Assembly: GCA_944474755.1 (NCBI GenBank)
Contig: OX104113.1
Coordinates: forward strand, 50,111,644 to 50,175,643
Source of the DNA: Limnoperna fortunei
Taxonomy: Eukaryota; Mollusca; Bivalvia; Mytilida; Modiolidae
Direction: 5' to 3'
DNA length: 64,000 nucleotides
Position 1 is the first letter of the stretch, and each line of letters starts with the position of its first letter. The notes beneath the pieces are model-generated. The model was not told the origin of the DNA. It saw only the letters and a list, made by a program, of their open reading frames with translations, and did no database searches. The position numbers and the translations under genes are program-made. This document shows, one piece after another, positions 5,916 to 34,339 of the stretch.

Positions 5916-6499
5916 GAAGCAAAAAACGTCTCTGAACGTAAACATTGTGTCATTGAATAAAATGAGTAGGCAACATTTTGTCTAGATGAACTCAAGATCT
6001 GATTGGCTGAAATCCATAGTCATACATGAAATCAATGTAAATAGACTGTTAGTTAAGTTTGAGCTAACGTCGTCTGTATTATTTTGACATGCTTAAAAGA
6101 TAAAGTTAAACCTTCTTTAATTCAATAATGTATTAAGGGTTGTCCATGACGATTGGTATATATAATGTCTATGTAGTATTGTCTATACAATGTCAAACTA
6201 CATAATGGCTATGAATAAGCCAATATTGTTAAAGTTATCAGGGACTTATTTAGTGTTGAGACGTAAGTAAGTTCTACATTTTGACGTATATAACTGCCTA
6301 AAATTTTAAAAGACATCACTATTACATACAAAAAGACTCTATCAGGGCCACAACAATCTTAGTATATCACGATGCGTAAGAGGGAGTAAATTTTAATGAA
6401 AATTTTAAGCATTACAGGATAACGTGCAATTTGTGTCGAAAATGAAAAAAGGATTCTCGTAATCTTACTCATGCAATTATTGACACTTAGCCATATTAT

Positions 6500-6830
6500 G
6501 TATAATATAAGGTAGGTATTGAGTGGACCTCAACTCAGACCTACAATCTAGCCAAATGCGATTGTCCTCATTAGGACTTCTAAACTTCGATTTAAGAATG
6601 TAATGTTTACGGTCCCCGGTTCACACCCCAAGTCCTTTTCCATGGCAAAGGAATCATTGATCCAAAGAGATAATATACCGTTGTCATCTTTTCATGTGCA
6701 AGCTTAATCATTTGGATTTTTACATATTGTTTGGGTTTGAGCGCCTGTGATGAGTCTTGATTAGACGAAACGCGCGTCTGGCGTTTGGAAAAAATTGTGT
6801 TAACCTTGGTATCTTTGACGACATTTTACT
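6500..6830 (+). repeat. Dispersed molluscan repeat, left copy
   Basis: Contains the motif GATGAGTCTTGATTAGACG followed by AAACGCGCGTCTGGCG near 6750-6785, which I recognise as recurrent in Mytilus genomes. The adjacent 'GGTCCCCGGTTCACACC' stretch belongs to the same conserved block. It is shared with the right arm, so it predates the duplication. The element class is unknown to me. Confidence 0.6.
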
Positions 6831-7031
6831 TAACCATATATTAAATATAGTCCTGATATTACTTCTTTCTTGTTCTGAAATCCGTATACTTTGTGGACAA
6901 TATAATATACGGAGTTAAAGTCCTTACTTAAAAATGCTCTAACAACTGGTGATTTTTACCTTAAATAGTTCCTTATCCATAATGCATTTTACCATATAAA
7001 TAAATACTTCATGAACAACAAAGAATTAAAG

Positions 7032-7263
7032 GGCATTGGTGACCGATTGGATAAATAAGTCATCTTCTATTCTATCAAGTGTTCTGACAACACTAAGATT
7101 GTGTTCGAGCCTTTCTGTTGTGTGTTTTCCAGTTCAATCCTTATTGACAACGTTTGACTTTTGCGTGGTTTCCAGCGTGGTTCATCAGGTACTGCTCGTT
7201 TACCCAATAAAAACTGGACGCCATAATTTAATTGAAAAATTGCGTAAAACCACAAACAAACAT
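7032..7263 (+). repeat. Old SINE copy, left arm
   Basis: The degraded tRNA-like head (TTGGTGACCGATTGG near 7036; GTGTTCGAGCC near 7100) is followed by the conserved 'CCCAATAAAAACTGGACGCC' and a CAAACAAACA tail. The orthologous copy lies in the right arm at 33000-33232, so insertion predates the inverted duplication. Confidence 0.85.
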
Positions 7264-7604
7264 AAAGTAATAACTGAACGTTTTTGTCAAGTAGAACTGA
7301 TATAGTCGGAACTGTTTGTGATTACTATACAAAACAAAACAAAATAGAAAACGTGAGCAGAATTACCAAGCAATCGAAAAATAATACTTAGTTGATTCTA
7401 TGTTCTTTACATTTGCGAACAACTAATAAAGCTTTGTTAAAAATACACAAAATTAAAATGCATTAAACATTGCGTGTTATGGCTTTGAAAGAAAAAAGTG
7501 AGACTGTAATGATCAAAATTTCTCGTACAAATGGTTTGAACACACTACAGGCTTGTCATCAAACAATATAATTGCATTGAAACTAACAAGATGTTTGAAT
7601 GTAA

Positions 7605-7610
7605 TTTATT
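7605..7610 (-). promoter_or_regulatory. Polyadenylation signal of left lectin-like gene
   Basis: AATAAA on the minus strand, about 108 bp after the stop codon of the beta-trefoil gene. The matching position in the right arm is also AATAAA (32641-32646). Confidence 0.6.
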
Positions 7611-7717
7611 ATAGAATATAACATAACAGACAGTAAAGCGGATTGTTAAAATAATAAAGCGAAAGCGCTGAATTGTAAAGCGACAAATTAAGTTCGTGTT
7701 TACATCTGTTGAGTGCC

Positions 7718-8104
7718 TCAAGCGTTGTTAATTAGTTCAAATGTCCATAGTTGTGGATTATTTCCTACTGTTACGTTGAGGGTATTGTCAGCTGTAATGT
7801 TGCCATTCGTACGAGCGTTATTAATTGATGTCCTGTTCGGAAATCCACGGAGACTCCAAGATGTCTCTTGACCAGTTTGTAATGTTTGATTAGCCATTAT
7901 TGCCCTCTCTCCTCCGAAGTGTGCCAAAAAAAGTTGGGAACGAACATTTTGGATATAGTAGAATACATTATCTGCTTCATTTTCATCAATGTTCAGTACC
8001 CAATGGCATTCTGGTGCTTCATGTCCTCTGCATTGTAACTGTCCATTTTCTACGCTCAAGAATTTTGCTACTCCATTATCATTATTTCTGATATAATACG
8101 TCAT
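7718..8104 (-). CDS. Beta-trefoil (lectin-like) protein, left-arm copy
   Basis: Complete 128-residue protein in one exon. Three internal repeats are visible: YYIRNN (3-8) with FL (15-16) and W35; YYIQNV (49-54) with LFL (58-60) and W83; SINNAR (93-98) with W120. The spacing of about 45 residues and the conserved Trp fit the pseudo-threefold beta-trefoil fold of R-type and mussel lectins, which bind glycans. There is no signal peptide or membrane segment and only two Cys (25, 33), so it is probably cytosolic or released by a non-classical route, as for other mussel trefoil lectins. The start is the first Met and immediately begins repeat 1. Upstream are a possible 5' UTR intron and a TATA box. 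The right-arm copy differs only at residue 28 (His here, Asn there). The exact lectin subfamily and its sugar are unknown, and a non-lectin trefoil role is possible. Confidence 0.85.
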   Translation of the reverse strand: MTYYIRNNDNGVAKFLSVENGQLQCRGHEAPECHWVLNIDENEADNVFYYIQNVRSQLFLAHFGGERAIMANQTLQTGQETSWSLRGFPNRTSINNARTNGNITADNTLNVTVGNNPQLWTFELINNA

Positions 8105-8760
8105 CTCGAACAGTTTTCTACAATTTATAACATTATTAATTATGTATGTGTGTTACCTGAACAGAAAAGAGTCTCGCAAATAGCAATTGCCCTGAAACAC
8201 TCAATCACAATAATATACATATACATTTAATCATTAAAGTTTTAAATAGGATATCAACTTGTAACTATAAAAATAACACCGAAAATGGTGTAGAACCGTT
8301 ATCAATAACAAAAACAATATTAATTTGTATATCCAAACGCAAATAACATATATTTTAATTATATACTATGATAATTTCGTTAGCTATCTTAGGTCAAACA
8401 AACATGACACATATGGTTATCTTTACAACTGTCTTAGCAAACAAATTTTTTTACTGGTTCAAGTTGCATACCTTTCTGAGAAAAACATTTATATTAAATA
8501 TTTTCTTCAGTATAGATTTGTTACTAAATAACAAATCTATATTTTTTTTAGTATTATAAATATATTATTTATTAGAGTTGTATTGTTCACAAGTTTTGTA
8601 TAATATTCCCACTACATAAAAAATAAAAAGTTTTTAAAGAAACATATCACACATCAATAGTTTCAATAAGAATGCTAAAATCAAATATGATGAACAGCTT
8701 TACTCACCTTCAAAAGCTTTGATTTCCGTCTTGTTGAAAAATGATTCTTCAAAAGAATGA
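8105..8760 (-). other. Probable 5' UTR exon and intron of left lectin-like gene
   Basis: On the minus strand a donor AAG|GTGAGTA lies at 8701-8707, after a putative non-coding first exon (about 8708-8760). Plausible acceptors (GTTTCAG and TTCTGTTCAG) lie just upstream of the ATG. The arrangement is conserved in the right arm (donor at 31293). The acceptor choice is ambiguous from sequence alone. Confidence 0.5.
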
Positions 8761-8782
8761 CCAAAAGAGACTAGTGTAAAGC

Positions 8783-8790
8783 CTTTTATA
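8783..8790 (-). promoter_or_regulatory. TATA box of left lectin-like gene
   Basis: TATAAAAG on the minus strand, about 25-30 bp upstream of the putative first exon and its GTGAGTA donor. It is identical at the equivalent right-arm position (31210-31217). Confidence 0.55.
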
Positions 8791-9059
8791 ATGATATGTA
8801 TTACACAATCTGCCAGGTAAACATCCACATTTCCACGGAATGCTATTTTGGACAACAATAGAATAACAATTTTATTTCAATGGTTTGCTGAATAAAGGCG
8901 TAAATGTATCGTTTTCTCGGTAAGTCGATAGCGTGTCTAAACGTGCTCTGAAATGGTTTTTTTTAAAAACCTATGTACTTTTACTATTCTTAATAATGTC
9001 TATTAATCATTACAAAAAAATAATTCTCAGAAAATATTTCCATATATATTTTTATATTT

Positions 9060-10560
9060 TAAAAAGAATTCTTAGAAATCCATTCAAACAGCGTTTCATA
9101 GCAGGATCGTCTAAGTGTACTACCAAAACACAATCGCAACTCCTGACCACTATTTTAACAACATTAAAAACGGGACTTCAAAAATACAATCACATTTTCT
9201 ACTCCAGAAAGTGGAATAAATGAAATGTGGATATTAAAAAATTCAAAAGACCTGATAGACATCTTGAGGTCTGGATCTTTTTCTCATTGTAACAGCATTA
9301 AAACATTTGATTTTTCGACACTCTATACGGCCATCCCTCATACGCAGCTTAAAACCAGGCTAAAAGATCTTATAAAACGCTGCTTTTTCAAGAAAAACGG
9401 AAAAAGACGATATAAAACCTGGTAATTGTTCATGACAGATCTTACTTCGTCATTAATGACTCCAAAGCTAACACTAAATATACTGAAGACCAAATGTCAC
9501 ATGTTAGATTTTCTAATTGACAACATATTCCTCATGTTTGGAGGACATGTTTTTCAACAGACTGTTGGTATTTCAATGGGTACTAATTGTGCTCCTCTCC
9601 TCGCCAACCAGTTTTTGTACTCCTATGAGGCTGAGTTCCTAGAAGGCCTACTGAAGAAGAAAGAAAAGACTCTGGCCCAGACCTTTAATTTCACATTTCG
9701 CTTTATTGATGATGTTTTGTCCTAAACAATGCTAAATTTGGTGACTATTTACATTCAATTTACCCTAGCGAGCTTGAAATTAAAGACACCACCAATACAC
9801 TAAGATCAGCCTCTTTCTTAGACCTACTTCTAGAAATAGACTCAGGAAAACTACAAACTAGTCTCTACGACAAGCGTGATGACCAACTTTCCAATTGTCA
9901 ACTTCCCGTTCATCGACAGCAACATTCCAGCAGCTTCAGCGTATGGTGTGTACATTTCACAACTTATACGTTATTCTAGATCCTGCGACCGTTATTCAGA
10001 TTTTCTAGACCGATCACTGCTGTTGACTGCTAAACTACTCAAACAAGGATTTGTTGTACCTAGGTTGATGTTATCTTTCCAGAAGTTCTATGGTCGGCAC
10101 CACGACTTAATTGATCGTTACGGGAAATCAGTGTCTCAAATACGATCTGACATTTTCGCTGAGTCATAGGTAGTGTTTCCTATTCCTGGATTTGACTTTT
10201 CCCTAGACAAGACAATGAGTAACTCGACGGGTGTCTAATTAGAGGCAGGCTCTGCTGACCCGTCCGGAGGACCTGAGTGCACCCATGGTTTTTATTGGGT
10301 TCGGGTTACTCTCTTTCTGTGTTTTATGTTTTTGATTTTTGTGTTGTGTTTGTCTATATCCGGAGTTGTAACTGTCCCTTGGTTTTTGGCTCTTTTTGTT
10401 CGGTCGGGTTTCTTTGCCAGTTTCTTAAAACACTTAAACATATACCTTTACAATTCAAACTTTGGCCACCTAAAATAACATTTAAACAGATAAATAGATC
10501 CCATACGAGAGTGAAAATTAAGTCACCTATATTAATGTATAGAACCAGTTAAAAAATTCC
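9060..10560 (+). pseudogene. Penelope-like reverse transcriptase, left-arm copy, broken
   Basis: Decayed single-ORF retroelement RT. Recognisable blocks are NPFKQRFIAGSSK (about 9080), motif A with catalytic Asp intact in TFDFSTLYTAIPH (about 9303), GISMGTNCAPLLAN (about 9567) and FIDDVLS (about 9702). The C-terminal block runs from AYGVYISQLIRYSR through RYGKSVSQIRSDIFAES, ending at 10169. Frameshifts near 9220, 9425, 9722 and 9870 break the frame, and about 0.2 kb of the N-terminal region present in the right arm is missing. It is followed by the characteristic 3' tail ('TCTAATTAGAGGCAGGC', 'TTTTTATTGGGTTCGGGTT') that recurs elsewhere in the window. I assign it to Penelope-like elements from the motif style; no GIY-YIG endonuclease is visible. 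Confidence 0.8.
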
Positions 10561-13379
10561 ATGAACTCTTACGATGGTAAAAGAAAAAGAATTGTTTAGT
10601 ATTATTTATTATTTCATTTTATTATATAAAACTTATTTAAAACATATTATATCTAACTGATACCCAGACTGAAAATAAATAAAAATAAAAATTTACTCGA
10701 GCTTACAAAAAGATTCTTTTATGTCTGTACACACCTGTAGATAGTTTGTTAACATCAAAACGCTAATGTCAATACATAAACAATACTATGGTTATGTTGT
10801 ACTTTTTTGCACACATATATAGAAACTTCGTACAAGTGTAGTTTTTCCGACAAAGATATATTTGGAATTATATTTTGTTGCTGTCAAATATTTCTTTTAC
10901 CTCAGCTGGATTCAAAAAACTTGTATAACGGATATATTAATCCTACTTAATTGACTGAAAGCATACAATTAATACTTGTTAAGGTCATTCCCAATTCCAA
11001 AGGGAAGACCTTATTGTATCTCTTTTGATTATTGTTATTATTCTTTTTTGCTACAGGTTCAAAGCTGTGCATGAAAAGAGTGTGTGACTTATCATTTTGA
11101 TATTTTATACCAAGTATCGTCTCCTTAAGACCTGATCGGGATTCACCTTGGACACCTTTACAGAGTTATCTTACCAAACACCGAAAACCTTGTTGTTGGA
11201 ACAACCCGGAAACAATTACTAAAAAGAGAGAAATGTTAAGGAAAATTCTGTCAAGCGGAGGCGACCGGTATTCCTTAAATGTTTCACGTACTCCGTCACC
11301 ACAACTCGCACACGTTAGGTCTTCATCATTGGTCAATTTGTGACATGACCTTCAAAAACGTTTCAAGGTCAAAGTTCAATATAAATTTCGACCTTAGGCC
11401 TACAAATTTAGTTATCATTATAACTCAAAATCTGTAAAAGATAGAAGCGGGCAATACATAGGAAAAGTACACATCGCATCAAGACTTACATTTGGTCTTT
11501 AGAGTCTAAAGCTGTGCGATGAATCATTTTCGAGTTAAAGCTCTTAACATGTTTCCGTATACACCTGGTAAACGATTCATCTGGACATCTATCGCTATCT
11601 AGAGAAGAATAAATTATTCATACATTGTGGTATTAAAATGGTGTTTTGAATATGTTCAAATGTAAATTTAATAGCAAGGTCACTTGTTGTTCCAATTTTG
11701 AAGGTATGATGTTGTAATTTTCCAAATTTGTGTTACGACATGTAATACTAACCTTTTTAATGTATTTATGCCACTAAATGTGTAAATAGGATAATTTTTC
11801 CTGAAATATTTTTTAACCCAAATCACATCCATACGATATGAGGATAACGATGAAGTCATGTGTTCTCAAACAGTCATGGTTTTAAAAGGTTAAAATCAGA
11901 TTCGTATTGATAATTAAAACCTTTATAGTGTTCACAAAATTAAATGTTTATCATGTTTTGTGAGTATGATTCAATTAGAGGTAAATCAAAGATCTTCGAG
12001 TTATTCTTTTAAATATAAAAAAATTAAAAACACATTTTCAGCATACATTTCATTTTCTGCTGATTCAATTACATCCGTGTGTTCAATATACACTATCAAA
12101 ATTTAGTTTTTTTGCATTACAGTTTAAAAATCTATATTGAAGTTGATATATATAAAGAGTTTATACCGCTAGCTCTTTTCCGATAATTAAAAGGCTTTAA
12201 TGGACTTTATAAAGGGTTCGCCTTTAAGAATGACTATGTTTTCAGTTTGTTTGACGAGATGAAAAGATAAAAGTACGAGAAAATTGTATTAAGTTGATCG
12301 TCACCAAGGGTTTCAAAATTGAGCGAAAGGCTATTCTTATTACATTTTCACCTCTGTATATGTGTCTGCATTTTACTGTTCTTTGCATCTAAATTTTCAA
12401 ATAAGAAGTACATCTCAGCCTAATTTGAGGATGTAAACTTTTTGTGCTCAACACTGTTGTTATGTGCAAGCAGACGACCGATAACAGGATGTAAAATATG
12501 ATTGGCTGATTGCAAAAGTCACACAATTTTGTGAATTTTGTGCTCTATTTTTAGTAACCCTTCAATGCGAAAAACATAGGTAAATTTACCAAAATAAAAA
12601 ATATCAAGAGGTAGACTTGGAAATATTAATATACTGTCAAATTATTAGTTAATAATATTCTATATTATCCATATCAATATATTTATGCATGTGTGTGTAA
12701 ATAGACTTCCTTAATCTTAGATTTATGTATGGATTTAAACTTGGAATCTATTTTCACATTATGTGTATTGTCGCTAAACTTCGATGGGTAATTTTAATCG
12801 AATAGCACGGTTTCAGGTTCAAATTTAGTACAAGGAAGAGAATACATGTACACAAGGCAATAACTATTTAGAAATTTAATATATGTTTAAAAGGTTTTCT
12901 GCCTTTTTCCGATGAAATGGCCAGGGGCATAACTTGAAGAATTTAAACCTCGACCAACATAGAAGGCCCAAATATTCCTAAATTTTTATTAATTTAAATT
13001 TTCTATTACGTGATGAAGTGAAAAATTATTAAAAATTATTGTAACATGTCTAATTGTTATAACATATAAACGTCCCACAAGGAAAAGTCATTTTAATATC
13101 TTAATAATTAACAAAATTCCAAAATAAGGACATGACATCTGTTTTGGTCGTGAGGGAATTCAAACATTTCAAACATTACAAGCTGACAGGTTATAACTTT
13201 GCAATATTGCAATAAATATTTTTCAAATTATTTTTGTATTATTTACTTAAGATTGGTATTCTAAGAGAGATATCATTTTGATCAAATTTCTCACGATATG
13301 TTTTACTTCACTCGTAATTATTAGTAGAACATCTTAGGAAGAAAAATCATTATATATGAAAATAGCAAAGGTAAAAAAC
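10561..13379. repeat. Arm-shared dispersed repeat body, no gene
   Basis: Collinear with right arm 26720-29490. From 10981 an imperfect palindrome (AAGGTCATTCCC ... GGGAAGACCTT) opens a long AT-rich segment with scattered AGGTCA-type words and no open frame of note. I read it as the front part of a long non-coding molluscan repeat that continues into the arrays at 13380-14620. Confidence 0.5.
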
Positions 13380-14110
13380 TAGTACGTAACTTGACCTTTT
13401 GCACATTTTAATGGTCGACTGTTGTTATGGTTTATGGGGAAGTCCGCATTATTCTACTATCAATAGTTTATGAGTTATATATGTAAAACTAACAATATCT
13501 TGATTAAATGGGGGATAACTCGTGTTACATTAAATCATACCCTTTTTCTCTAAATTTCACAAACTTACCTCTTTGCAATGCCAACATTTTCATTGAAATA
13601 AGTTTCTATTTATTTTCGCTTATGGTTCGAAAGAACAAACAATAACAAGCAAATTTCTACATCTAGATCGTGACCTTGACCTTTGACCTTGTGTCCATTT
13701 TCAAAGTCAAATTTTAGAAAGATCTATAGTGAAGACACAATGCCTCTACTATCAATAATTAATTACTTATGTTTAAAATACTAATAATCAAATGTCTTAA
13801 TGGGAGATAACTCGTATAAAAGTCAAATTACTAGCTTTCAAATTGGGTAAAGTTGTGTTTTAAGGCGAATATTATCCCCTTAAGAAGTGTTTATCTATCT
13901 TTTACGATTTCGGAGGAGTAGCGATAACAAGCAAATGTGAAAAATCGAGAATGTGACTTTGACCTTTCACCTAGGGTCAAAGGTCATGTACGTTTATGGT
14001 GAAGTCCCGAGGTCTCTATCTTATCAGATTCTTGAGATTTATTGCATGTCACTTATAATTTGTCTTCCATAAGATGTTGTTAAATCCTTCAATATAGACA
14101 TAAAAAAGTT
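13380..14110 (+). repeat. Degenerate ~285 bp tandem modules with nuclear-receptor-like half sites
   Basis: Three related modules begin near 13440, 13730 and 14003. Each has 'GAAGTCC/GAAGACAC', then 'CTATCAATA' or similar, then 'GGGAGATAACTCGT' (first two modules). Runs such as TGACCTTGACCTTTGACCTTG (split over 13674-13692) and GGGTCAAAGGTCATG (about 13975) sit between modules. These contain AGGTCAAAGGTCA-like direct repeats with 1 bp spacing (DR1). Confidence 0.7.
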
Positions 14111-14239
14111 GGGCAAGGATATATAGCACTTGTTTATAAAAATTTCCTGTCAATATCTTTCCTGGTTTGGGAGGAGTAGCGATTACAAGTTTTTGTTTAG
14201 TTATGGCGGAGATAACTCCACAAGGGTGCGGTTAGTCAG

Positions 14240-14620
14240 GTTGAACTGCAAAACAATAACTATTGTTCCTTCCACTAAAAGGCGGAAAGACCTAATAATC
14301 AAAACAATAACTATAGATTTTTCCATTGAAAAGTGGAAAGACCTATTAATAATCAAAAAACTAACTATAGGTCTTTTTACTGAAAGGCGAAACAATCTAC
14401 TAATGAAAATAAAAACAATAACTATTGGTCCTTCCATTGAAAGGTGGAAAGAACAATAACTATAGGTCTTGCCGCTGAAAGGCGAAAAGACATAATAATA
14501 AAAATCAAAACAATAACTATCGGTCCACTGAAAGGTGGAAAGACCTAATAATCAGACAATAACAATAGGTCTTATAATTGAAAGGTGGAAAGACCTAATA
14601 ATAATCATAAGAGGAAAAGA
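14240..14620. repeat. Hairpin minisatellite, left copy
   Basis: About eight imperfect units of 45-55 bp. Each holds 'AATAACTATAGGTC' and a short foldback of the type GGTCTTTCCACTG / GAAAGGTGGAAAGACC, followed by AATAATCAAAA. The units diverge from one another. The right-arm counterpart is 25430-25850. Confidence 0.85.
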
Positions 14621-16469
14621 CATTAAAAAATTCTCTGAAATTATATATATATATATACGAAGTGCGTTTGTGTTCTCGCTAAGCAAGTTCATGATTGTTT
14701 GCGTTTCTATATATCACTGTTGTTTTGTTTGAGGTTTCAGTTATATGTTTCTATGAACATGCGTGAAAATGTGTGAAAATAGTCGGAACAGTTTAATTTA
14801 TGTCGACAATTCAGATTTATTTTGTTTATAAGGCTTGCCAGTGTCAAGTGCACTTTTGGTGAACAATTATAAACATACAACAAAAATATAAGCAGATCGA
14901 GCTTCTTTTAACAATGTGGAATATAAGGTGTTTTTTTAATGGTTAGCAAATCCTCCTCATATGAGTGGCGTCATTCATAAAGGGACCTTAGTCTAAAATT
15001 TTTCGAAATTGAGAATTTTGCAGATTATGATCCTGATATATTGAAATAATCATATCTACATTTTCATTGTATTCTCTCAAAGTTAAAAGCCGTAGATATA
15101 TGAAATCGGAACTCACTACTGCCAGAAGTTAATTAATTTTCCGGCGTTTTATCATAAACGACAAAGACTGTCATTTGCAATTTATTACCGTGCATTCCAG
15201 TTAATCAGTTCTTGCAGTAATCATAGGACTTCAATTACTTAAATTTGCATTTGTTATCTTTTATTTTACCAAAAACTTATTTAAGTTTTACTCAAGATTA
15301 TCTGTATTACTCAATTCGGCAATTTTCGTTTGCAACTCATTGTACAATGTTATATCGATCATCAACAAATTCGTCTAATTGTCCTATCTCGTAATTTACT
15401 CATGCTTGGAAAGTGTAGTGTTCAAATACTTTGTAAATAATTTACAATCATTAAAGAAAACCAAATTGTTTCTATTAATATGAGGATGAATTTTCCCGAA
15501 CATCTTAATTGTATAATACATTAACTGAAATATACAACTATATTTAAAACATATATTAATTTGTTTCCGTTTACGACTTTTCGAAAGCTTTACGACACAT
15601 TTTGAATTTTTGTCAGTTTTTTTAATGAGGGTTAAGGTCAGTTTAAGTAATTTTTCAGCTAGATCACGACCAAATAAAAAATATTAAAATCTACGAATGA
15701 CTTTGTCATTAAGATTTGCAAAAAAGTATCATATTGAAGATTTCTCGAAATTTGAATAATCAAACTTCAACGAAATTCAAATGTGTACAACTTTAATTTC
15801 AAACATAAAATGTGTATATGACATAAACTTCTAGTGGTGGAAAAACACCAATCCTTGTAGTTCTTTGTAAATTCAAACAGGATACTATCAATAAATATCA
15901 CTATCTGTAAAAAAAATATTCAGGTATTAATATTTCACAGTTCATAATATTTGTTTACATATGCAAAAGTATATTGCATAAGATGAAAGTTTTTGACGTT
16001 TGAGCGACTATTTTAAGTAGATCATAAACATTTTATAGAAAATTTAAAATTTTTGTTTTCTTTTTCCTGTCCAAAGACTTTTAAAGGCTAATCTAGACCG
16101 TATTCGTAAACATCATTAGCTGTGAAAATATGCAGCAATTTATTCACAGTTTATAATTTATGTTTACGTTTGCAAATGTACTGCATCAGGTGAAGGCTTA
16201 CTACGATTAAGTGACTTTTTAAAACTAGATCATACATATTTTATTTATTTAATAATTACTCAACGAAAGACAAGAAATCAACAAAAATTTACACAAAAAG
16301 AAACAGGCAACACTTTCTTTCTTATTACATGTACACGGATTTAAAAAGGTCACAAATAATGTATCAATATGGTTTGAAATTTAGTATTGGCAAGCCTGAT
16401 TGATAAAATATGAATGATTATTTTTCAAAAGTAAACTGTCGTATTCTTTTTAACTTCCATGAAAATCTA

Positions 16470-16715
16470 GCTAACTCAGCCCCCTGCATTGGCCACAACG
16501 AACCACTCCTACTGGAAATCTGCAAAAGGGGTCACCATCGTGCAAGGAGCGTGACACTCCCCAAACACGTCACCCACTACGTTCCGCGGCATGGCCCTCC
16601 CCGTCATGACCTGACAACACTCCAGCGAGAAGGCCTCTCCCATTCGCCACCCGAAGACGCCCCCGGACGCTACACGGGTTAAGTACTGGGACCCAATGTA
16701 TGATCCGAGTCTTTT
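16470..16715 (-). repeat. Fragment of (CAAT)n-tailed retroposon
   Basis: GC-rich island in AT-rich surroundings. It matches the element at 51092-51505: 'ATCTGCAAAAGGGGTC', 'GTGCAAGGAGCGTG', 'CGTCACCCACTACG', 'TACTGGGACCCA'. Both ends are missing and no target duplication is seen. Confidence 0.7.
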
Positions 16716-23151: not shown

Positions 23152-24196
23152 CGTAAAAACAAATTCGACGAAATGGGAGAACGGTTTTGTGATAATATAA
23201 CATTTACTTTTCACAAAAACACGACAAAAAGCAACTCTAAGACTCGTCAAAAAAGACATTATTGTTATTCTTGACTAATATATAACAAACACATTTGCTT
23301 CATATTTTATCTGGGGTAATGTGATCAAATAATAAGTTTTGATATACATCAGAAACTGAACATAGCATATAAATAGTTTTAGCGTTCCGTTTTGAAAACA
23401 AAAAAGCACAAACAACTTATTATATAATTGCAAAACCGCTTCCCTGGATAACAGTCTCAACGTATTTCTCAATATTTGTATTTAAGTTGTCGTACATTTG
23501 TTCTTATTTTGTTTTCAATAGAATTTTATCTATGAGTGTGTGGAAAGTTTCACGCTCTTTGATTTAGGTTTATTTTTATAGCACTGAATGCAGTTGTATC
23601 CAAACATTTTATAGCAAACATTTTATAGCAACTAAAACATACTGGAAAGAACATTATCATAAAATTATATTCAGTAGTGATCAAATAGCTATTAATTAAT
23701 TTTTAATTCAAATATTTTCTTTCTGATATGTTTTGACATAGTAGTTTACATAGTTGAACCTAGTCACAAGTTTATAAGTTTTAGTTAATGTTTCTCTTTT
23801 TTTTGATGTTATGCTTGTTTAGTTTTATTTATTGAATGTTTGCTTAATTCCAAGCAAGCAATATTTCAGCTGAATTCACTACGAGAACAATTAAAATAAA
23901 TCAGCGGGAATAGATATCACCAAGAGCACATTTTTGATTTTCACTGTAAACGTATAGAATATTGGGTAGGTATTACAGTAAAATATATAAACTATAGGAA
24001 ACGTTAACAAAACACAAATGGGAGAAAATATTCGATTAAAACATGACAGAGTAAAAGAAAATTAGAAAGGTAACCGACCGTATAACAAGAGCCGAAATAA
24101 AGAGGTAATTACAAATCCATATTATTAAGAACACACCATTGAACGGAAGTATACCAAGAAAATATATGAATCACAGGTAATCAGTACCAAGAATAT

Positions 24197-24463
24197 GTTT
24201 GTTTTTGTTTGTTTAATAGTGTTTAACGCCACTTTCAGCAATTTTTCAGCTATATCATGGCGTCCAGTTTTTATTGGGGGAGGAAGCCGGAGTACCCGGA
24301 GAAAACCCCCGACCAGCGGTAGGAAAACTGGCAATCCTTGTCAATTAAGATTGGAGTCGAGTACACTCTACCTGCAGTGAGAATCGAACCCGCAATCTCA
24401 GTGTTGACAGACCACGTGATCAATAGTAGACAAACTACCTTGACCACACGGCCACCGAGGCCC
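24197..24463 (-). repeat. Young full-length SINE, right arm only
   Basis: Best-preserved copy of the family. On the minus strand it has GGCCTCGGTGGCCG (A-box region), GGTTCGATTC (B box), the conserved 'GGATTGCCAGTTTTCCTACC', 'CCCCCAATAAAAACTGGACG', 'GCTGAAAGTGGCGTTAAAC' and a CAAACAAA tail. It is flanked by a perfect 15 bp target duplication, CAGTACCAAGAATAT (24182-24196 and 24464-24478). The left arm carries the empty site (20017-20031), so it inserted after the arms separated. Confidence 0.95.
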
Positions 24464-24874
24464 CAGTACCAAGAATATAAGGCGTGTCTAATATTGTTCA
24501 TAATGCTGTATTTAGAGGTTCTTTTTAACGAGTTACGAGAAAACATAACATTGCACTTTTGTATGTGTATTATGTGGGATTTGCTTTTCTTTTTTGAAGC
24601 ATCAGAATATCACTATATATTGATCAATTGGCCATCATTCTTTTCTATACATGTATTTAATGCTTGAAAATGATTTTGATTAACATATCACTCAGAAACA
24701 TATCGATATACATACGCTTAGCACATGTTATTTAAATTACTTTTTCACCTGCATTCATATTTTTTGCAATTAAAGAAAACTGTATTTGCTCGTTCTTCAA
24801 TTAACATTTTGCGTGTTGTGATATATAAAAACGCAAACAATCATGAACTTGCTTAGCGAGAACACAAACGCACT

Positions 24875-25385
24875 TCGTGCTTTCTTTAATTTATATTTGC
24901 ATATCCATTATAGATTACATTGGTAAAAACGTGACAATTAGTTTTGCCTTAAGCGTTTTCTCAAAATCCAGTATAGTTATTTAACAGGAAAATAAAACTA
25001 AAATATCGCAAATGCGTTTTTATGAGATGAAATATCGCACATAAAATGTATTCCAGGCTTAAGGTGTGCTATGTTAGGAACTAATTAGTATGGCCTATTT
25101 TAATGAAGACTTAACACACCATATATTTTAATATGAATCTAAGAATAGAAGGGATCTGTAGACGACAGATTTTCGGATAAAAGTGACCTGACCTTTATTT
25201 GCACTATGATCACATATATACTTATCATTTGTTACGTGAATTCATGAAATAGAAATAAACTGTAGATGGAATGTGACCCAATCGAATATAAATTAAACAA
25301 TTAAGTTCGAAGAATTTATTTCCAACTTTACAGTTTTTAACGACCCGACTGATTTTTGCACGATTAAAGCATATATATTTACACT
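24875..25385. other. ~0.5 kb segment present only in right arm
   Basis: In the left arm 'TTCTCTGAAATT' is joined to 'ACGAAGTGCG' by a short TA run (14632-14665). Here about 510 bp of AT-rich sequence lies between the matching positions. It may be a right-arm insertion or a left-arm deletion at a TA microsatellite. No gene is recognised. Confidence 0.7.
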
Positions 25386-25429
25386 TAATTTCAGAGAATT
25401 TTTTAATGTCTCTTCCTCTAATGATTATT

Positions 25430-25850
25430 ATTAGGTCTTTCCACCATTCAATTAAAATACCTATAGTTATTGTTCTGATTATTATAATTATTGATAAGTC
25501 TTTCCCCCTTTCAATGGAAAAACCTATAGTTATTGTCTGATTATTAGGTCTTTCCACCTTTCAGTGGACCGATAGTTATTGTTTTGATTTTTATTATTAT
25601 GTCTTTTCGCCTTTCAGCGGCAAGACCGATAGTTATTGTTCTTTCCACCTTTCAATGGAAGGACCAATAGTCATTGTTTTTATTTTCATTATTAGATTGT
25701 TTCGCCTTTCAGTGGAAAGACCTATAGTTATTTTTTTTATTATTAATAGGTCTTTCTACTTTTCAATGGAAAAAGCTATAGTTATTGTTTTGATTATTAG
25801 GTCTTTCCACCTTTCAGTGGAAGGAACAATAGTTATTGTTTTGCAGTTCA
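25430..25850. repeat. Hairpin minisatellite, right copy
   Basis: Reverse-complement counterpart of 14240-14620, with the same 45-55 bp units (GGTCTTTCCACCTTTCA, TATAGTTATTGTTTTGATT). Unit content differs slightly from the left arm, which shows independent drift. Confidence 0.85.
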
Positions 25851-25989
25851 ACCTGACTAACCGCACCCTTGTGGAGTTATCTACCCCATAACTAAACAAA
25901 AACTTGTAATCGCTACTCCTCCCAAACCAGGAAAGATATTGACAGGAAATCTTTATAAACAAGTGCTTAATATCCTTGCCCAACTTTTT

Positions 25990-26720
25990 GATATCTATAT
26001 TGAAGGGATTTAACATCTTATGGAAGAAACATTATAAGTGACATGCAATAAATCTCAAGAATCTGATGAGATAGAGACCTGGGGACTTCACCATAAACGT
26101 ACATGACCTTTGACCCTAGAAATGGACACAAGGTCAAAGGTCAAGGGCACATTCTCGATTTTTCACATTTGCTTGTTATCGCTACTCCTCCGAAATCGTA
26201 AAAGATAGATAAACACTTCTTAAGGGGATAATATTCGCCTTAAGACACAACTTTACCCAATTTGAAAGCTAGCAATTTGACTTTTATACGAGTTATCTCC
26301 CATTAAGACATTTGATTATTAGTATTTTAAACATAAGTTATTAATTATTGATAGTAGAGGCATTGTGTCTTCACTATAGATCTTTCTAAAACTTGACTTT
26401 GAATATGGACACAAGGTCAAAGGTCAAGGTCACGATCTACATGTAGATGTAGAAATTTGCTTGTTATTGTTTGTTCTTTCGAACCATAAGCGAAAATAAA
26501 TAGAAACTTATTTCAATGAAAATGTTGGCATTGCAAAGAGGTAAGTTTGTGAAATTTAGAGAAAAAGTGTATGATTTAATGTAACACGAGTTATCCCCCA
26601 TTTAATCAAGTTATTGTTAGTTTTACATATATAACTCATAAAATATTGATAGTAGAATAATGCGGACTTCCCCATAAACCATAACAACAGTTTACCATTA
26701 AAATGTGCAAAAGGTCAAGT
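25990..26720 (-). repeat. Half-site tandem modules, right copy
   Basis: Counterpart of 13380-14110. It carries ACAAGGTCAAAGGTCAAGG runs near 26127 and 26412 and the 'GAGTTATCTCCCATTAAG' box near 26290. Confidence 0.7.
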
Positions 26721-29489
26721 TACGTACTAGTTTTTTACCTTTGCTATTTTCATATATAATGATCTTTCTTCCTAAGATGTTCTACTAATAATCACGAGTG
26801 AAGTAAAACATATCGTGAGAAATTTTATCAAAATGATATCTCTCTTAGAATACCAATCTCAAGTATATAATACAAAAATAATTTGAAAAATATTTATTGC
26901 AAAGTTATAACCTGTCAGCTTGTAATGTTTGAAATGTTTGAATTCCCTCACGACCAAAACAGATGTCATGTCCTTATTTTGGAATTTTGTTAATTATTAA
27001 GATATTAAAATGACTTTTCCTTGTGGGACGTTTATATGTAATAACAATTAGACATGTTACAATAATTTTTATTAAATTCATCACGTAATAGAAAATGTAA
27101 ATAAATAAAAATTTAGGAATATTTGGGTCATCTATATTGGTCGAGGTTTAAATCCTTCCAGTTAGGCCCCTGGCCATTTCATCGGAAAAAGGCCGAAAAC
27201 CTTTTAAACATATATTAAATTTCTAAATAGTTATTGCCTTGTGTACATGTATTCTCTAAATTTGAACCTGAAACCGTGCTATTCGATTAAAATTACCCAT
27301 CGAAGTTTAGCGACAATACACATATTGTAAAAATAGATTCCAAGTTTAAATCCGTACATAAATCTAAGATTAAGGAAGTCTATGTACACACACTTGCATA
27401 AATATATATGCATATCTCTGATATGGATAATATAGAATATTATTAACTAATAATTTGACAGTATATTAATATTTCCAAGTCTACCTCTTGATATTTTGTA
27501 TTTTGGTAAATTTACCTATGTTTTTCGCATTGCAGGGTTACTAAAAATAAGCACTAAATTCACAAAATTGTGTGACTTTTGCAATCAGTCAATCATATAT
27601 TACATCCTGTTATCGGTCGTCTGCTGGCACATAACAACAGTGTTGAGCACAAAAAGTTTACATCCTCAAATTAGGCTGAGATGTACTTCTTATGTGAAAA
27701 TTTAGATGCAAAGAACAGTAAAATGCAGACACATATACAGAGGTGAAAATGTACTAAGAAGAGCCTTCCGCTCAATTTTGAAACCCTTGGTGACGATCAA
27801 CTTGATAAAATTTTCTCGTACTTTTATCTTTTTATCTCGTCAAACAAACTGAAAACATAGTCATTCTTAAAGGCGAACCCTTTATAAAGTCCAATAAAGC
27901 CTTTAAATTATCAGAAAAGAGCTAGCGGTATAAACTCTTTATATATATCAACTTCAATATAGATTTTTAAACTGTAATGCAAAAAACCTAAATTTTGATA
28001 GTGTATATTGAACACACGGATGCAATTGAATCAGCAGAAAATGAAATGTATGCTGAAAATGTGTTTTTAATTTTTTAATATTTAAAAGAATAACTCGAAG
28101 ATCTTTGATTTACCTCTAATTGAATCAGACTCACAAAACATGATAATAATTTAATTTTGTGAACACTATAAAGGTTTTAATTATCAATACGAATCTGATT
28201 TTAACCTTTTAAAACCATGACTGTTTGTGAACATATGACTTCATCGTTATCCTCATATCGTATGGATGTGATTTGCGTTAAAAAATATTTCAGGAAAAAT
28301 TATCCTATTTACACATTTAGTGGCATAAATACATTAAAAAGGTTAGTATTACATGTCGTAACACAAATTTGGAAAATTACAATATCATACCTTCAAAATT
28401 GGAACAACAAGTGACCTTGCAATTAAATTTACATTTGAACATATTCAAAACACCATTTTAATACCACAATGTATGAATAATTTATTCTTCTCTAGATAGC
28501 GATAGATGTCCAGATGAATCGTTTACCAGGTGTATACGGAAACATGTCAAGAGCTTTAACTCGAAAATGATTCATCGCACAGCTTTAGACTCTAAAGACC
28601 AAATATAAGTCTTGATGCGATGTGTACTTTTCCTATGTATTGCCCGCTTCTATCTTTTACAGATTTTGAGTTATAATGATAACTAAATTTGGAGGCCTAA
28701 GGTCGAAGTTTATATTGAACTTTGACCTTGAAACGTTTTTGAAGGTCATGTCACAAATTGACCAATGATTAAGACCTAACGTGTGCGAGTTGTGGTGACG
28801 GAGTGCGTGAAACATTTAAGGTATACCGGTCGCCTCCGCTTGACAGAATTTTCCTTAACAGTTCTCTCTTTTTAGTCATTCTCTATATATTATAGTTTCC
28901 GGGTTGTTCCAATAACGATTTATTGATAATATTGATAAGTCACACACTCTTTTCATGCACAGCTTTGAGCCTGTAGCAAAAAAGAAGAATAATAATAATC
29001 AAAAGAGATACAGTAAGGTCTTCCCTTTGGAATTGGGAATGACCTTAACAATTATTAATTGTATGCTTTCAGTCAATTAAGTAGGATTAATATATCCGTT
29101 ATACAAGTTTTTTCAATCCAGCTGAGGTAAAAGAAATATTTGACAGCAACAAAATATAATTCCAAATATATATTGGTATTAAAAACTACACTTGTACAAA
29201 GTTTCTATATATGTGTGCAAAAAAGTACAACATAACCATAGTATTGTTTATGTATTAACATTAGCGTTTTGATGTTAACAAACTATCTACAGGTGTGTAC
29301 AGACATAAAAGAATCTTTTTGTATGCTCGAGTAAATTTTTTCTTTTTATTTATTTTCAGTCTGGGTATCAGTTAGGTATAATATGTTTTAAATAAGTTTT
29401 ATATAATAAAATGAAATAATAAATAATACTAAACAATTCTTTTTCTTTTACCATCGTAAGAGTTCATGGAACTTTTTAACTGGTTCTAT
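26721..29489. repeat. Arm-shared dispersed repeat body, right copy
   Basis: Collinear reverse complement of 10561-13379, ending in the palindromic AAGGTCTTCCC/GGGAATGACCTT box near 29015. No convincing gene is seen; open frames up to 69 codons have no recognisable content. Confidence 0.55.
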
Positions 29490-29726
29490 ATATATATATA
29501 ACAAAAGCCAAAGACCAAGGGACAGTTACAATTCCTTATATAGACAAACACAACACAAAAATCAAAAACATAAAACACAGAAAGAGAGTAACCCAAACCC
29601 AATAAAAGCCATTGGTGCACTCAGGTGCTCCGGACGGGTAAGCAGTGCCTGCCTCTAATTAGACACCCGTCGAGTTACTCATTGTCTTGTCTAGGGAAAG
29701 TCAAATCCAGGAATAGGAAACACTAC
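29490..29726 (-). repeat. Penelope-like 3' tail, right arm
   Basis: Non-coding tail immediately after the RT stop codon. On the minus strand it carries 'GACAAGACAATGAGTAACTC', 'TCTAATTAGAGGCAGGCACT' and 'TTTTATTGGGTTTGGGTTAC'. The same tail is found at 10170-10430, 35460-35710, 44320-44580, 47940-48190 and 56430-56700. Confidence 0.85.
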
Positions 29727-30818
29727 CTATGACTCAGCGAAAATGTCAGATCGTATTTGAGACACTGATTTCCCGTAACGATCAATTGAGTCGTGGTGCC
29801 GACAATAGAATTTCTGGAAAGATAACATCAACCTAGAATAACGTATAAGTTGTGAAATGTACACACCATACGCTGGAGCTGCTGGAATGTTGCTGTAGAT
29901 GAACGGGAAGTTGACAATTGGAAAGTTGAAGTCATCACGCTTGTCGTAGAGCCTAGTTTGTAGTTTTCCTGAGTCTACTTCTAGAAGTAGATCTAAGAAA
30001 GAGGCTGATCTTAGTGTATTGGTGGTGTCTTTAATTTCAAGCTCGCTAGGGTAAATTGAATGTAAATAGGCACCAAATTTAGCATTGTTTAGGGACAAAA
30101 TATCATCAATATAGCGAAATGTGAAATTAAAGGTCTGGGCCAGAGTCTTTTCTTTCTTCTTCAGTAGGCCTTCTAGGAACTCAGCCTCATAGGAGTACAA
30201 AAACAGGTTGGCGAGGAGAGGAGCACAATTAGTACCCATTGGAATACCAACAGTCTGTTGAAAAAATTGTCCTCCAAACATGACGAATTTGTTGTCAATT
30301 AGAAAATCTAACATGTGACAGATTTGGTCTTCAGTATATTTAGTGTTAGCTTTGGAGTCATTAATGACGAAGTAAGATCTGTCATGAATAATTACCAGGT
30401 ATTTATATCGTCTCTTTCCGTTTGTCTTGAAAAAGCAGCGTTTTATAAGATCTTTTAGCCTGGTTTTAAGCTGCGTATGAGGGATGGCCGTATAGAGTGT
30501 CGAAAAATTAAATGTTTTAATGCTGTTACAATGAGAAAAAGATCCAGACCTCAAGATGTCTATCAGGTTTTTTGAATTTTTTAATATCCACATTTCATTT
30601 ATTCCACTTCTGGAATAGAAAATGTCATTGTATTTTTGAAGTCCCGTTTTTAATGTTCTTAAAATAGTGGTCAGGAGTTGCGATAGTGTTTTGGTAGTAC
30701 ACTTAGACGATCCTGCTATGAAACGCTGTTTGTATGGATTTTTGTGAAGTTTAGGAATCCAATACAATAAAGGGAGATCACAATCTTCGACTCTGATTTT
30801 GAGATCAAAGGAAGCCAA
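29727..30818 (-). CDS. Penelope-like reverse transcriptase, right-arm copy (uninterrupted, probably inactive)
   Basis: A 363-codon open frame, the longest in the window. Blocks in order are WIPKLHKNPYKQRFIAGSSK (20-39), motif A FNFSTLYTAIPH (103-114), FFQQTVGIPMGTNCAPLLAN (185-204), the catalytic FRYIDDIL (234-241), SASFLDLLLEVDSGKLQTRLYD, then AYGVYISQLIRYSR and the C-terminal SQIRSDIFAES. Motif A reads FNFSTLYT where the left-arm copy has FDFSTLYT, so the expected catalytic Asp is Asn (residue 104). Compared with the left copy, 28 residues after IRYSR are missing through an in-frame 84 bp deletion. No N-terminal extension or GIY-YIG nuclease is seen, so the element is 5'-truncated. It would copy element RNA if active. 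I class it as Penelope-like from motif style, and as probably dead despite the open frame. Confidence 0.8.
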   Translation of the reverse strand: MASFDLKIRVEDCDLPLLYWIPKLHKNPYKQRFIAGSSKCTTKTLSQLLTTILRTLKTGLQKYNDIFYSRSGINEMWILKNSKNLIDILRSGSFSHCNSIKTFNFSTLYTAIPHTQLKTRLKDLIKRCFFKTNGKRRYKYLVIIHDRSYFVINDSKANTKYTEDQICHMLDFLIDNKFVMFGGQFFQQTVGIPMGTNCAPLLANLFLYSYEAEFLEGLLKKKEKTLAQTFNFTFRYIDDILSLNNAKFGAYLHSIYPSELEIKDTTNTLRSASFLDLLLEVDSGKLQTRLYDKRDDFNFPIVNFPFIYSNIPAAPAYGVYISQLIRYSRLMLSFQKFYCRHHDSIDRYGKSVSQIRSDIFAES

Positions 30819-31209
30819 TACCGATTTGTGATTTTCAATAATCTCCTCTTTTGAAAGCGCAGTGAATGTGTAAGTATCTTTTTAATTTAGAAGTATATGG
30901 ACAAATTTACTGAGAATTATTTTCAAATTGTACTGTAAGTGGAAATAATTTTCTAAGAATTCTTTTTAAAACATAAAAATATATATGTAAGGATTAATAG
31001 ACATTATTAAGAATAGTAAAAGTACATAGGTTTTAAAAGAAAACATTTCAGAGCACGTTTAGAGACGCTATCGACTTACCGAGAAAACGATACATTTACG
31101 CCTTTATTCAGCAAACCATGTGAAATAAAATTTTTATTCTATTGTTGTCCAAAATAGCATTCCGTGGAAATGTGGGTGTTTACCTGGCAGATTGTGTAAT
31201 AAATATCAT

Positions 31210-31217
31210 TATAAAAG
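31210..31217 (+). promoter_or_regulatory. TATA box of right lectin-like gene
   Basis: TATAAAAG, followed by the putative non-coding first exon (about 31240-31292) that ends at the donor AAG|GTGAGTA (31293). It is conserved at 8783-8790 in the left arm. Confidence 0.55.
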
Positions 31218-31239
31218 CCTTTACACTAGTCCCTTTTGG

Positions 31240-32146
31240 TCATTCTTTTGAAGAATCATTTTTCAACAAGACGGAAATCAAAGCTTCTGAAGGTGAGTAA
31301 AGTTGTTCATCATATTTGATTTTAGCATTCTTATTGAAACTATTGATGTGTGATAGGTTTCTTTAAAAACTTTTTATTTTTTTATGTAGTGGGTATATTA
31401 TACAAAACTTGTGAATAATACAACTCTAATAAATAATATATTTATAATACTAAAAAAGAAGATATTTAATATAAATGTTTTTCTCAGAAAGGTATACAAC
31501 TTGAACCAGTAAAAAAAATGTGTCTGCTAAGACAGTTGTAAAGATAACCACATGTGTCATGTTTGTTTTACCTAGTTTATAATTAAAATATATGTTATTT
31601 GCGTTTGGATATACAAATTAAAATATTGTTTTTGTTATTGATAACGGTTCTACACCATTTTCGGTGTTATTTTTATAGTTACAAGTTGATATCCTATTTA
31701 AAACTTTAATGATTTAATGTATATGTGGTTGTCCCGATAGTTTTTGAAAATGTTATCGCTTTTAAAAAGTTATCGTTATTTAAAAAAAAAATCAAAATTT
31801 TATAAAGTTTTCGGTCTCCTTTTGATTAATACATTATATGCAATTCAATAAACCTAATGTTTTGTAGATTCAATGAAAACATTTCAAACAAACGTTTTCA
31901 TTTATGCATTTTATTGTTGGTATATCTGTTAACTGTTGCTTATGACAGAAACAACTTTTTTATCCACTAAAATACACTGATAGCACCTGTTTATCAATAA
32001 CATGTACGATCACGTCTTCACCAGTTTGAATAAAATATTATTGTTATTGAGTGTTTCAGGGCAATTGCTATTTGAGAGACTCTTTTCTGTTCAGGTAAAA
32101 CACATACATAATTAATAATGTTATAAATTGTAGAAAACTGTTCGAG
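31240..32146 (+). other. 5' UTR exon, intron and leader of right lectin-like gene
   Basis: Putative exon 1 is about 31240-31292, with donor GTGAGTAAAG. Possible acceptors are GAGTGTTTCAG (ending 32059) and TTTTCTGTTCAG (ending 32094), followed by a short leader to the ATG at 32147. The intron carries about 0.3 kb (31728-32030) that is absent from the left-arm intron. Confidence 0.5.
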
Positions 32147-32533
32147 ATGACGTATTATATCAGAAATAATGATAATGGAGTAGCAAAATTCTTGAGCGTA
32201 GAAAATGGACAGTTACAATGCAGAGGAAATGAAGCACCAGAATGCCATTGGGTACTGAACATTGATGAAAATGAAGCAGATAATGTATTCTACTATATCC
32301 AAAATGTTCGTTCCCAACTTTTTTTGGCACACTTCGGAGGAGAGAGGGCAATAATGGCTAATCAAACATTACAAACTGGTCAAGAGACATCTTGGAGTCT
32401 CCGTGGATTTCCGAACAGGACATCAATTAATAACGCTCGTACGAATGGCAACATTACAGCTGACAATACCCTCAACGTAACAGTAGGAAATAATCCACAA
32501 CTATGGACATTTGAACTAATTAACAACGCTTGA
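32147..32533 (+). CDS. Beta-trefoil (lectin-like) protein, right-arm copy
   Basis: A 128-residue protein differing from the left-arm copy by one base and one residue (Asn28 instead of His28). It has the same three trefoil repeats with Trp at 35, 83 and 120, and no secretion signal. The predicted role is glycan binding, as in small mussel trefoil lectins; this follows from fold resemblance only. The CDS is a single exon preceded by a conserved TATA box and 5' UTR intron, and followed by AATAAA at 32641. The two copies diverge from each other about 24 kb apart (left on minus, right on plus), with their promoters facing the palindrome centre. The intact frame, and the near-identity in CDS and 3' flank compared with drifting surroundings, suggest that both are functional or are homogenised by conversion. 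Confidence 0.85.
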   Translation: MTYYIRNNDNGVAKFLSVENGQLQCRGNEAPECHWVLNIDENEADNVFYYIQNVRSQLFLAHFGGERAIMANQTLQTGQETSWSLRGFPNRTSINNARTNGNITADNTLNVTVGNNPQLWTFELINNA

Positions 32534-32640
32534 GGCACTCAACAGATGTAAACACGAACTTAATTTGTCGCTTTACAATTCAGCGCTTTCGCTTTATTAT
32601 TTTAACAATCCGCTTTACTGTCTGTTATGTTATATTCTAT

Positions 32641-32646
32641 AATAAA
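32641..32646 (+). promoter_or_regulatory. Polyadenylation signal of right lectin-like gene
   Basis: AATAAA about 108 bp after the stop codon, at the same offset as in the left arm. Confidence 0.6.
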
Positions 32647-32999
32647 TTACATTCAAACATCTTGTTAGTTTCAATGCAATTATATTGTTTGATGACAAGC
32701 CTGTAGTGTGTTCAAACCATTTGTACGAGTAATTTTATTTTGAAATTTTGATCATTACAGTCTCACTTTTTTCTTTCAAAGCCATAACACGCAATGTTTA
32801 ATGCATTTTAATTTTGTGTATTTTTAACAAAGCTTTATTAGTTGTTCGCAAATGTAAAGAACATAGAATCAACTAAGTATTATTTTTCGATTGCTTGGTA
32901 ATTCTGCTCACGTTTTCTATTTTGTTTTGTTTTGTATAGTAATCACAAACAGTTCCGACTATATCAGTTCTACTTGACAAAAACGTTCAGTTATTACTT

Positions 33000-33232
33000 T
33001 ATGTTTGTTTGTGGTTTTACGCAATTTTTCAATTAAATTATGGCGTCCAGTTTTTATTGGGTAAACGAGCAGTACCTGATGAACCACGCTGGAAACCACG
33101 CAAAAGTCAAACGTTGTCAATAAGGATTGAACTGGAAAACACACAGCAGAAAGGCTCGAACACAATCTTAGTGTTGTCAGAACACTTGATAGAATAGAAG
33201 ATGACTTATTTATCCGATCGGTCACCTATGCC
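33000..33232 (-). repeat. Old SINE copy, right arm
   Basis: Reverse complement of the left-arm SINE at 7032-7263, with 'GGCGTCCAGTTTTTATTGGG' and a degraded head. It is shared by both arms and so predates the duplication. Confidence 0.85.
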
Positions 33233-33419
33233 CTTTAATTCTTTATTGTTCATGAAGTATTTATTTATATGGTAAAATGCGTTGTGGATAAGGAACTATT
33301 TAAGGTAAAAATCACCAGTTGTTAGAGCATTTTTAAATAAGGACTTTAACTCCGTATATTATATTGTCCACAAAGTATACGGATTTCAGAACAAGAAAGA
33401 AGTAATATCAGGACTATAT

Positions 33420-33760
33420 TAAATATATGGTTAAGTAAAATGTCGTCAAAGATACCAAGGTTAACACAATTTTTTCCCAACGCCAGACTCGCGTTTCGTC
33501 TAATCAAGACTCATCACTGGCGCTCAAACCCAAACAATATGTAAAAATCCAAATGATTAAGCTTGCACATGCAAAGATGACAACGGTATATTATCTCTTT
33601 GGATCAATGATTCCTTTGCCATGGAAAAGGACTTGGGGTGTGAACCGGGGACCGTAAACATTACATTCTTAAATCGAAGTTTAGAAGTCCTAATGAGGAC
33701 AATCGCATTTGGCTAGATTGTAGGTCTGAGTTGAGGTCCACTCAATACCTACCTTATATT
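33420..33760 (-). repeat. Dispersed molluscan repeat, right copy
   Basis: Counterpart of 6500-6830, with CGCCAGACTCGCGTTTCGTC and AAGACTCATCA near 33481-33516. Confidence 0.6.
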
Positions 33761-34339
33761 ATACATAATATGGCTAAGTGTCAATAATTGCATGAGTAAG
33801 ATTACGAGAATCCTTTTTTCATTTTCGAAACAAATTGCACGTTATCCTGTCGTGCTTAAAATTTTCATTAAAATTTACTCCCTCTTACGCATCGTGATAT
33901 ACTAAGATTGTTGGGGCCCTGGTAGAGGCTTTTTGTATGTAATAGTGATGTCTTGTAAAATTTTAGGCTGTTATATACGTCAAAATGTAGAACTTACTTA
34001 CGTATCAACACTAAATAAGTCCCTGATAACTTTAGCAATATTGGCTAATTCATATGCATTATTGTATAGACAATACTACATAGACATTATATATTCTAAT
34101 CGTCATGGACAACCCTTAATACATTATTGAATTAAAGAAGGTTTAACTTTGTCTTTTAAGCATGTCAAAATAATAAAGACGACTTTAGCTCAAACTTAAC
34201 TGACAGTCTATTTACATTGATTTCATGCATGGCTATGGATTTCAACCAATCAGATCTTGAGTTCATTTAGACAAAATGTGGACTACTCATTTTAGTCAAT
34301 GACACAATGTTTACGTTACGAGACGTTTTTTGCTTAGAG

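Follow-up and report, generated by a model that had tools for sequence, protein, structure and literature searches.

The 64,000-nucleotide stretch analysed here (the window) spans positions 50111644-50175643 of contig OX104113.1, referred to as C3 in the following, in an assembly of 1,335,373,924 bases (1.335 Gb) and 285 contigs. Two copies of a lectin-like open reading frame (ORF) lie in it in opposite orientation, one at 7718-8104 on the minus strand and the other at 32147-32533 on the plus strand. Each copy belongs to one arm of a giant imperfect palindrome of about 28 kb, which consists of a left arm in forward orientation (5917-21285, 15.4 kb), a central loop of 348 bp (21286-21633) and an inverted right arm (21634-34335, 12.7 kb). 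The arms also share a reverse-transcriptase element and an array of 51-bp repeats.

Results

Comparison of the window with itself by BLAST yields a collinear chain of matches in mirror order that leads from 5917/34335 inwards to 21062/23151. With gaps counted, identity in the main pieces of the chain is 86-98.7%, and the long pieces have E = 0. Anchored realignment of one arm against the other gave 9,574 identical positions in 9,817 aligned columns (97.5%), corresponding to 243 mismatches and a divergence of 2.5%. Outside this count stand the stretches 9017-9075, 11095-11191 and 14658-19649 of the left arm and 21774-23150, 24182-24463, 24848-25371, 28917-28932, 30742-30983 and 31727-32034 of the right arm. 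These results confirm the interrupted palindrome of the original prediction, whose coordinates lie within a few bases of the true values at both outer edges and both inner ends. The spacer of 2.1 kb that it placed between the arms has to be revised. The mirror continues inward of 21062/23151, where 21064-21285 pairs with 21773-21634, and homology stops at ...GTAC on either side of the 348-bp loop; the loop is thus far shorter than the arms. Most of the supposed spacer is a segment of 1,377 bp that is present in the right arm only (21774-23150). Among the markers predicted to be mirrored, the lectin-like gene, the reverse-transcriptase element and the 51-bp array do appear in both arms, but a short interspersed nuclear element (SINE) is restricted to the right one. 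Adjoining the loop, an 82-bp unit is doubled at 21109-21281 in the left arm only.

The lectin-like ORF encodes a predicted protein of 128 amino acids with a weak match to the RicinB_lectin_2 profile of Pfam (PF14200; 24.5 bits), just below the cut-off of 25.6 bits. The left and right frames differ by a single base that leads to one amino-acid exchange (H28N). A protein search with the predicted lectin found no homologue, and the solved structures of the PDB gave no match at E<=1. A single-sequence fold prediction with a mean predicted local distance difference test score (pLDDT) of 45.6 was unusable and was set aside. An old paralogous region is found elsewhere in the assembly, on chromosome 10 (C10), which carries a duplicated lectin block (C10:52836241-52846626 and C10:52254001-52264000), the two copies of which are 582 kb apart in direct orientation and 97.6% alike over the stretches read. 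In both arms, a large part of the outer 3 kb is matched by the C10 blocks with an identity of about 71-75% (84% in one 67-bp piece), and the lectin frame in these blocks shares 48% amino-acid identity with that of the arms. The reverse-transcriptase ORF of the right arm (29727-30881, minus strand, 384 amino acids) belongs to a widespread retroelement. It is mirrored in the left arm at about 9076-10396, where the frame is broken into shorter ORFs. Among the 120 listed relatives of the retroelement protein, three carry the name of an organism, in each case the pearl oyster Pinctada imbricata. Scans of the window for tRNAs and with Rfam gave no match.

The difference in arm length results mainly from a composite sequence of 4.96 kb that is present in the left arm only (14718-19677), offset by right-arm-only segments of 1.38, about 0.5, 0.31 and 0.27 kb. 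Smaller segments confined to one arm also occur on both sides. In the right arm, the two sides of the 4.96-kb segment meet at a 3-bp microhomology (CAC), which suggests that its counterpart was deleted there. Within the 1,377-bp segment of the right arm, 22433-22746 is a dispersed repeat in degraded form. This repeat is found on several chromosomes and often occurs in pairs 7.5-7.8 kb apart, resembling a long terminal repeat (LTR). The right-arm segment of about 0.5 kb (24878-25385) is replaced by an (AT)n run in the left arm. A further one of 308 bp (31727-32034) is largely shared with the C10 paralogue and was therefore probably lost from the left arm. Overall, five indels of at least 10 bp are located in 5917-9016. 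Four of these were compared with C10 and all four read as losses, of 308 and 13 bp from the left arm and of 23 and 38 bp from the right arm; for the 38-bp and 13-bp cases, the likeness to C10 is only partial.

The SINE of the right arm (24196-24464, minus strand) is flanked by direct repeats of 13 bp, TATTCTTGGTACT in reverse-strand letters, at 24183-24195 and 24465-24477. At 20018-20030, the left arm retains the corresponding empty site as an intact single copy. The duplicated target in one arm and the unoccupied site in the other imply that the two arms evolved separately and do not represent a single molecule that was read twice. A mirror structure with a short loop could also be produced by a foldback read, due to a missed adapter or a chimera, that entered the assembly. 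Both halves would then stem from one molecule, yet the arms are distinguished by 243 substitutions, the SINE with its target-site duplication and indels of kilobase size, and the outer flanks differ as well. A foldback read, already contradicted by the arm-specific SINE, is hence hardly conceivable. The original prediction had noted both substitutions and arm-specific insertions and had argued, rightly, against a simple foldback read.

For the analysis of the flanks, 100 kb on each side of the window were added, so that 264 kb were compared; positions outside the window are given relative to its first base. The sole run of N in these 264 kb comprises 200 N at -77833 to -77634. The palindrome is accordingly surrounded by uninterrupted sequence that reaches from -77.6 kb to +164 kb or beyond, a total of no less than 241 kb, and none of its junctions coincides with an N gap. 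The mirror stops at both outer edges. When 105.9 kb of left flank were compared with 129.7 kb of right flank, no mirrored match reached 700 columns. The 25 best mirrored matches listed are repeats scattered over the flanks, none of them longer than 424 columns, and apart from such repeats the flanks are unrelated. A third copy of an arm of at least 700 columns was not found in the 264 kb. Within the whole assembly, the outer 2.3 kb of the arm (query 5717-8216) match in full length only at the two arms (40 of 1,419 candidates scored), and a query with the spacer gave one full match (40 of 906 candidates scored).

The flanks also bear on a further explanation, which the original prediction had offered beside a real old inverted duplication: the assembler could have joined two haplotypes of one locus head-to-head, or inserted a haplotig in inverted orientation. 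The divergence of 2.5% and the large indels are of the kind seen between mussel alleles in the reports cited below, and local variation in divergence would fit alleles, too. However, a head-to-head join would extend the mirror outward, and the flanks show no mirror over more than 100 kb. The hemizygous regions of up to 30 kb described for Mytilus galloprovincialis (PMC7653742) would be too short to hide mirrored flanks. An inverted haplotig, in turn, would require two joins within gapless sequence, with its inner end meeting the end of the left arm exactly at the loop. Since a head-to-head join should have left mirrored flanks, we consider a misjoin of haplotypes unlikely.

A dispersed non-LTR retrotransposon (long interspersed nuclear element, LINE; at least 4063-5919, plus strand) forms the left edge of the palindrome with its 3' tail. 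This element has frames at 4063-5748 and a tail, AAGAAGAAGAAG, that reaches the edge. The first 200 bases or so of the query 5717-8216 occur in 36 other places among 48 matches, and all of these end at query positions 198-215 (about 5919), which identifies the edge as the end of the element. The last AAG of the tail (5917-5919) is common to both arms, since the right arm ends with these three bases, too; the flanks differ from there on. Apart from an A/G-rich match to the tail (TAAAGAAGAA at 3923), no target-site duplication of at least 9 bp was found for this LINE in 1-4200. Long inverted arms with unique sequence inside would also fit a foldback-type transposon, in which the arms would be the very long terminal inverted repeats at the ends of a mobile element. 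Among the 40 of 1,419 candidates scored, the outer 2.3 kb are found in full only twice, the adjoining bases outside 5917 and 34335 form no direct repeat, and the left edge belongs to another element. We regard such a transposon as very improbable.

Which arm is the copy can be approached by means of the C10 paralogue. Outside the right edge, C10 matches two short stretches in 34388-34668, namely 34388-34471 and 34567-34668, with E values of 1e-9 to 1e-17. The next best match has E = 4e-4 in the 350 kb of sequence searched. Beyond the left edge, C10 matches only SINE-type repeats at a distance of 1.3-2.1 kb. This moderate evidence from sequence comparison indicates that the right arm probably remains in the old place and that the left arm is probably the copy. 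We rejected 34388-34471 as a simple continuation of the C10 block: its counterpart is situated inside the block in C10, and only 34567-34668 is in order.

Divergence is distributed unevenly between the arms. The longest run free of mismatches comprises 904 columns (7119-8022 in the left arm, 32229-33145 in the right arm) and includes one 13-bp indel. None of 20,000 permutations reached this length (mean 241, maximum 669). Of the 387 bases that make up the lectin frame, 305 fall within the tract, which continues for 599 bases downstream of the frame. Outside the tract, substitutions between the arms amount to about 2.7%. The inner 1,552 columns are 1.3% divergent compared to 3.0% in the middle 5,977 columns (Fisher p = 8e-5), and the outermost 1,191 columns are 3.4% divergent. 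Dispersion is 3.11 in blocks of 400 columns and exceeds all 2,000 permutations for three block sizes. With the tract removed, dispersion is 1.67 in 200-column blocks, a value reached by 8 of 2,000 permutations. Selective constraint does not explain the tract because C10 is no closer there than elsewhere: identity to C10 is 72.5-72.7% in the two blocks of the tract and 71-73% in neighbouring blocks of the left arm. When 35 differing columns in five blocks were polarized with C10, 11 were derived in the left arm, 19 in the right arm, and 5 fell to neither. Copies of the retroelement as outgroup assigned 5 changes to the left arm and 9 to the right arm and left 1 unresolved. If the arms are paralogues, 904 columns without a substitution against a background of 2.7% need recent copying between them, and the tract was probably produced by arm-to-arm gene conversion.

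Several further repeats were observed in and around the window. At -48162 to -27285 on C3, short tandem repeats form two arrays that occur again, in mirrored order, at a distance of about 13 kb and are perhaps a second, older inverted duplication. From 125165 to 138564, units of about 1.3 kb that are up to 99% alike are repeated in tandem. To the right of the palindrome, the window contains a tandem duplication of 0.94 kb with 95.6% identity (39149-41071), a direct duplication (41131-44732 and 45229-48338) with two matching pieces of 89-92% identity and reverse-transcriptase fragments inside, and two tandem copies of a 242-bp unit that are 99% alike (55849-56333).

Discussion

Taken together, it is quite likely that the palindrome is a real, old inverted duplication of a single lectin-bearing segment beside its source and does not consist of two haplotypes placed head-to-head. 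This assessment is based on flanks without mirror symmetry over more than 100 kb, gapless junctions, a SINE with its target duplication in one arm only and a paralogue with short matches beyond one edge only, and of the two readings in the original prediction it favours the first. In the proposed course of events, a segment of about 15-17 kb would have been copied in inverted orientation next to itself, probably when replication or repair folded back or switched templates, and the 348-bp loop would have remained between the copies. The new copy, probably the left one, would end at the (GAA)n tail of the LINE. Subsequently, the arms would have decayed apart: the SINE inserted into the right arm, one or the other arm lost stretches that range from tens of bases to 5 kb, and substitutions accumulated to about 2.7% outside one tract. 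Gene conversion between the arms probably rewrote at least one stretch of about 0.9 kb, which covers the greater part of the lectin frame together with its 3' flank, and the region near the loop may have been rewritten as well. As a result of such conversion, both lectin copies would have remained open and nearly identical.

Some observations weigh against this interpretation. The divergence of 2.5% and the many indels match the allelic variation in mussels, with a heterozygosity in M. galloprovincialis given as 1.73% (PMC7653742) and 3.27% (PMC11183127). A mosaic of divergence would be expected of alleles with varying ancestry, and the tract alone is no proof of conversion in cis. In regard to the direction of copying, the two C10 matches in 34388-34668 extend over no more than 85 and 102 bp, with 75-76% identity. 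The match at 34388-34471 is out of order relative to C10, and 33 bp of that at 34567-34668 are also part of the C10 match at the end of the arm itself. The right flank also matches the C10 stretch farther out, at 35.6, 38.7-39.2, 40.2 and 48.5-48.8 kb, probably in repeats, and how dispersed the two short stretches are was judged from 350 kb only. Given their order, their overlap and these more distant matches, a local rearrangement must be assumed.

Arm-to-arm copying accounts for the tract, the uneven divergence and the low divergence of the inner columns; varying ancestry would do so as well if the arms were alleles. Alternatively, the duplication could be real and the tract could have arisen other than by conversion on the same chromosome, for example by exchange with another allele. 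This variant draws on the fact that the evidence consists of one clear tract and a mild gradient and that the excess in dispersion is weaker once the tract is removed. On the other hand, paralogues with so long a tract free of substitutions would have to have been copied into each other recently. We therefore find such a different origin of the tract rather unlikely and prefer conversion between the arms of a duplicated segment.

Palindromes have been described as unstable structures that are seldom found in natural genomes (PMC10766186). In bivalves with high heterozygosity, they can easily pass for assembly errors. Our literature search found no bivalve palindrome among the matches listed, which is no proof of absence in print. 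If real, a palindrome that carries a gene, has a SINE in only one of its arms and shows an apparent conversion tract could serve as a test case for the duplication and homogenisation of lectin genes in such genomes. As a tentative idea, the autosomal palindrome of a bivalve might act like those of mammalian sex chromosomes, with arm-to-arm conversion keeping alike a divergently transcribed pair of lectin genes of putative immune function, whereas the remainder of the arms would decay. If this were true, hemizygous genomes with fast turnover would keep gene pairs steady by folding back on themselves.

The predicted lectin can be compared to the R-type lectins MytiLec and SeviL of mussels. With 128 amino acids it is similar in size (SeviL is described as a 15 kDa protein) and shows a weak match to the ricin-type profile. 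In contrast to these lectins, it has no match to any solved structure at E<=1. In kilobase segments of presence and absence and in the level of divergence, the locus resembles the presence-absence variation and hemizygosity reported for Mytilus (PMC7653742, PMC11183127). Unlike there, both versions occur here in cis, inverted and in one gapless stretch.

Concerning its origin, inverted duplications have been reported to arise by fold-back priming at breaks in yeast (PMC10622511) and by template switching at inverted repeats, as in origin-dependent inverted-repeat amplification (ODIRA) or microhomology-mediated break-induced replication (MMBIR) (PMC10766186). According to the latter report, secondary rearrangements can enlarge the spacer. 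These systems share with our locus an inverted copy beside its source and a short central loop. The duplication described here differs in being interstitial and in having no third copy of at least 700 columns in 264 kb. By analogy, fold-back priming or template switching would fit as an origin, with a founding junction that is too old to read.

The closest parallel in regard to gene conversion is provided by the palindromes of the human Y chromosome, for example P8 with arms of 38.0 and 37.4 kb and a spacer of 3.4 kb (PMC6790999). Their arms are described as nearly identical throughout, whereas the arms presented here are 2.5% divergent and rich in indels, contain one clear identical tract and are located on a 112-Mb chromosome of a presumed bivalve that is not known as a sex chromosome. 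Common to both are inverted arms that bear genes, a short spacer and, as arm-to-arm conversion would produce it, an identical stretch over a gene.

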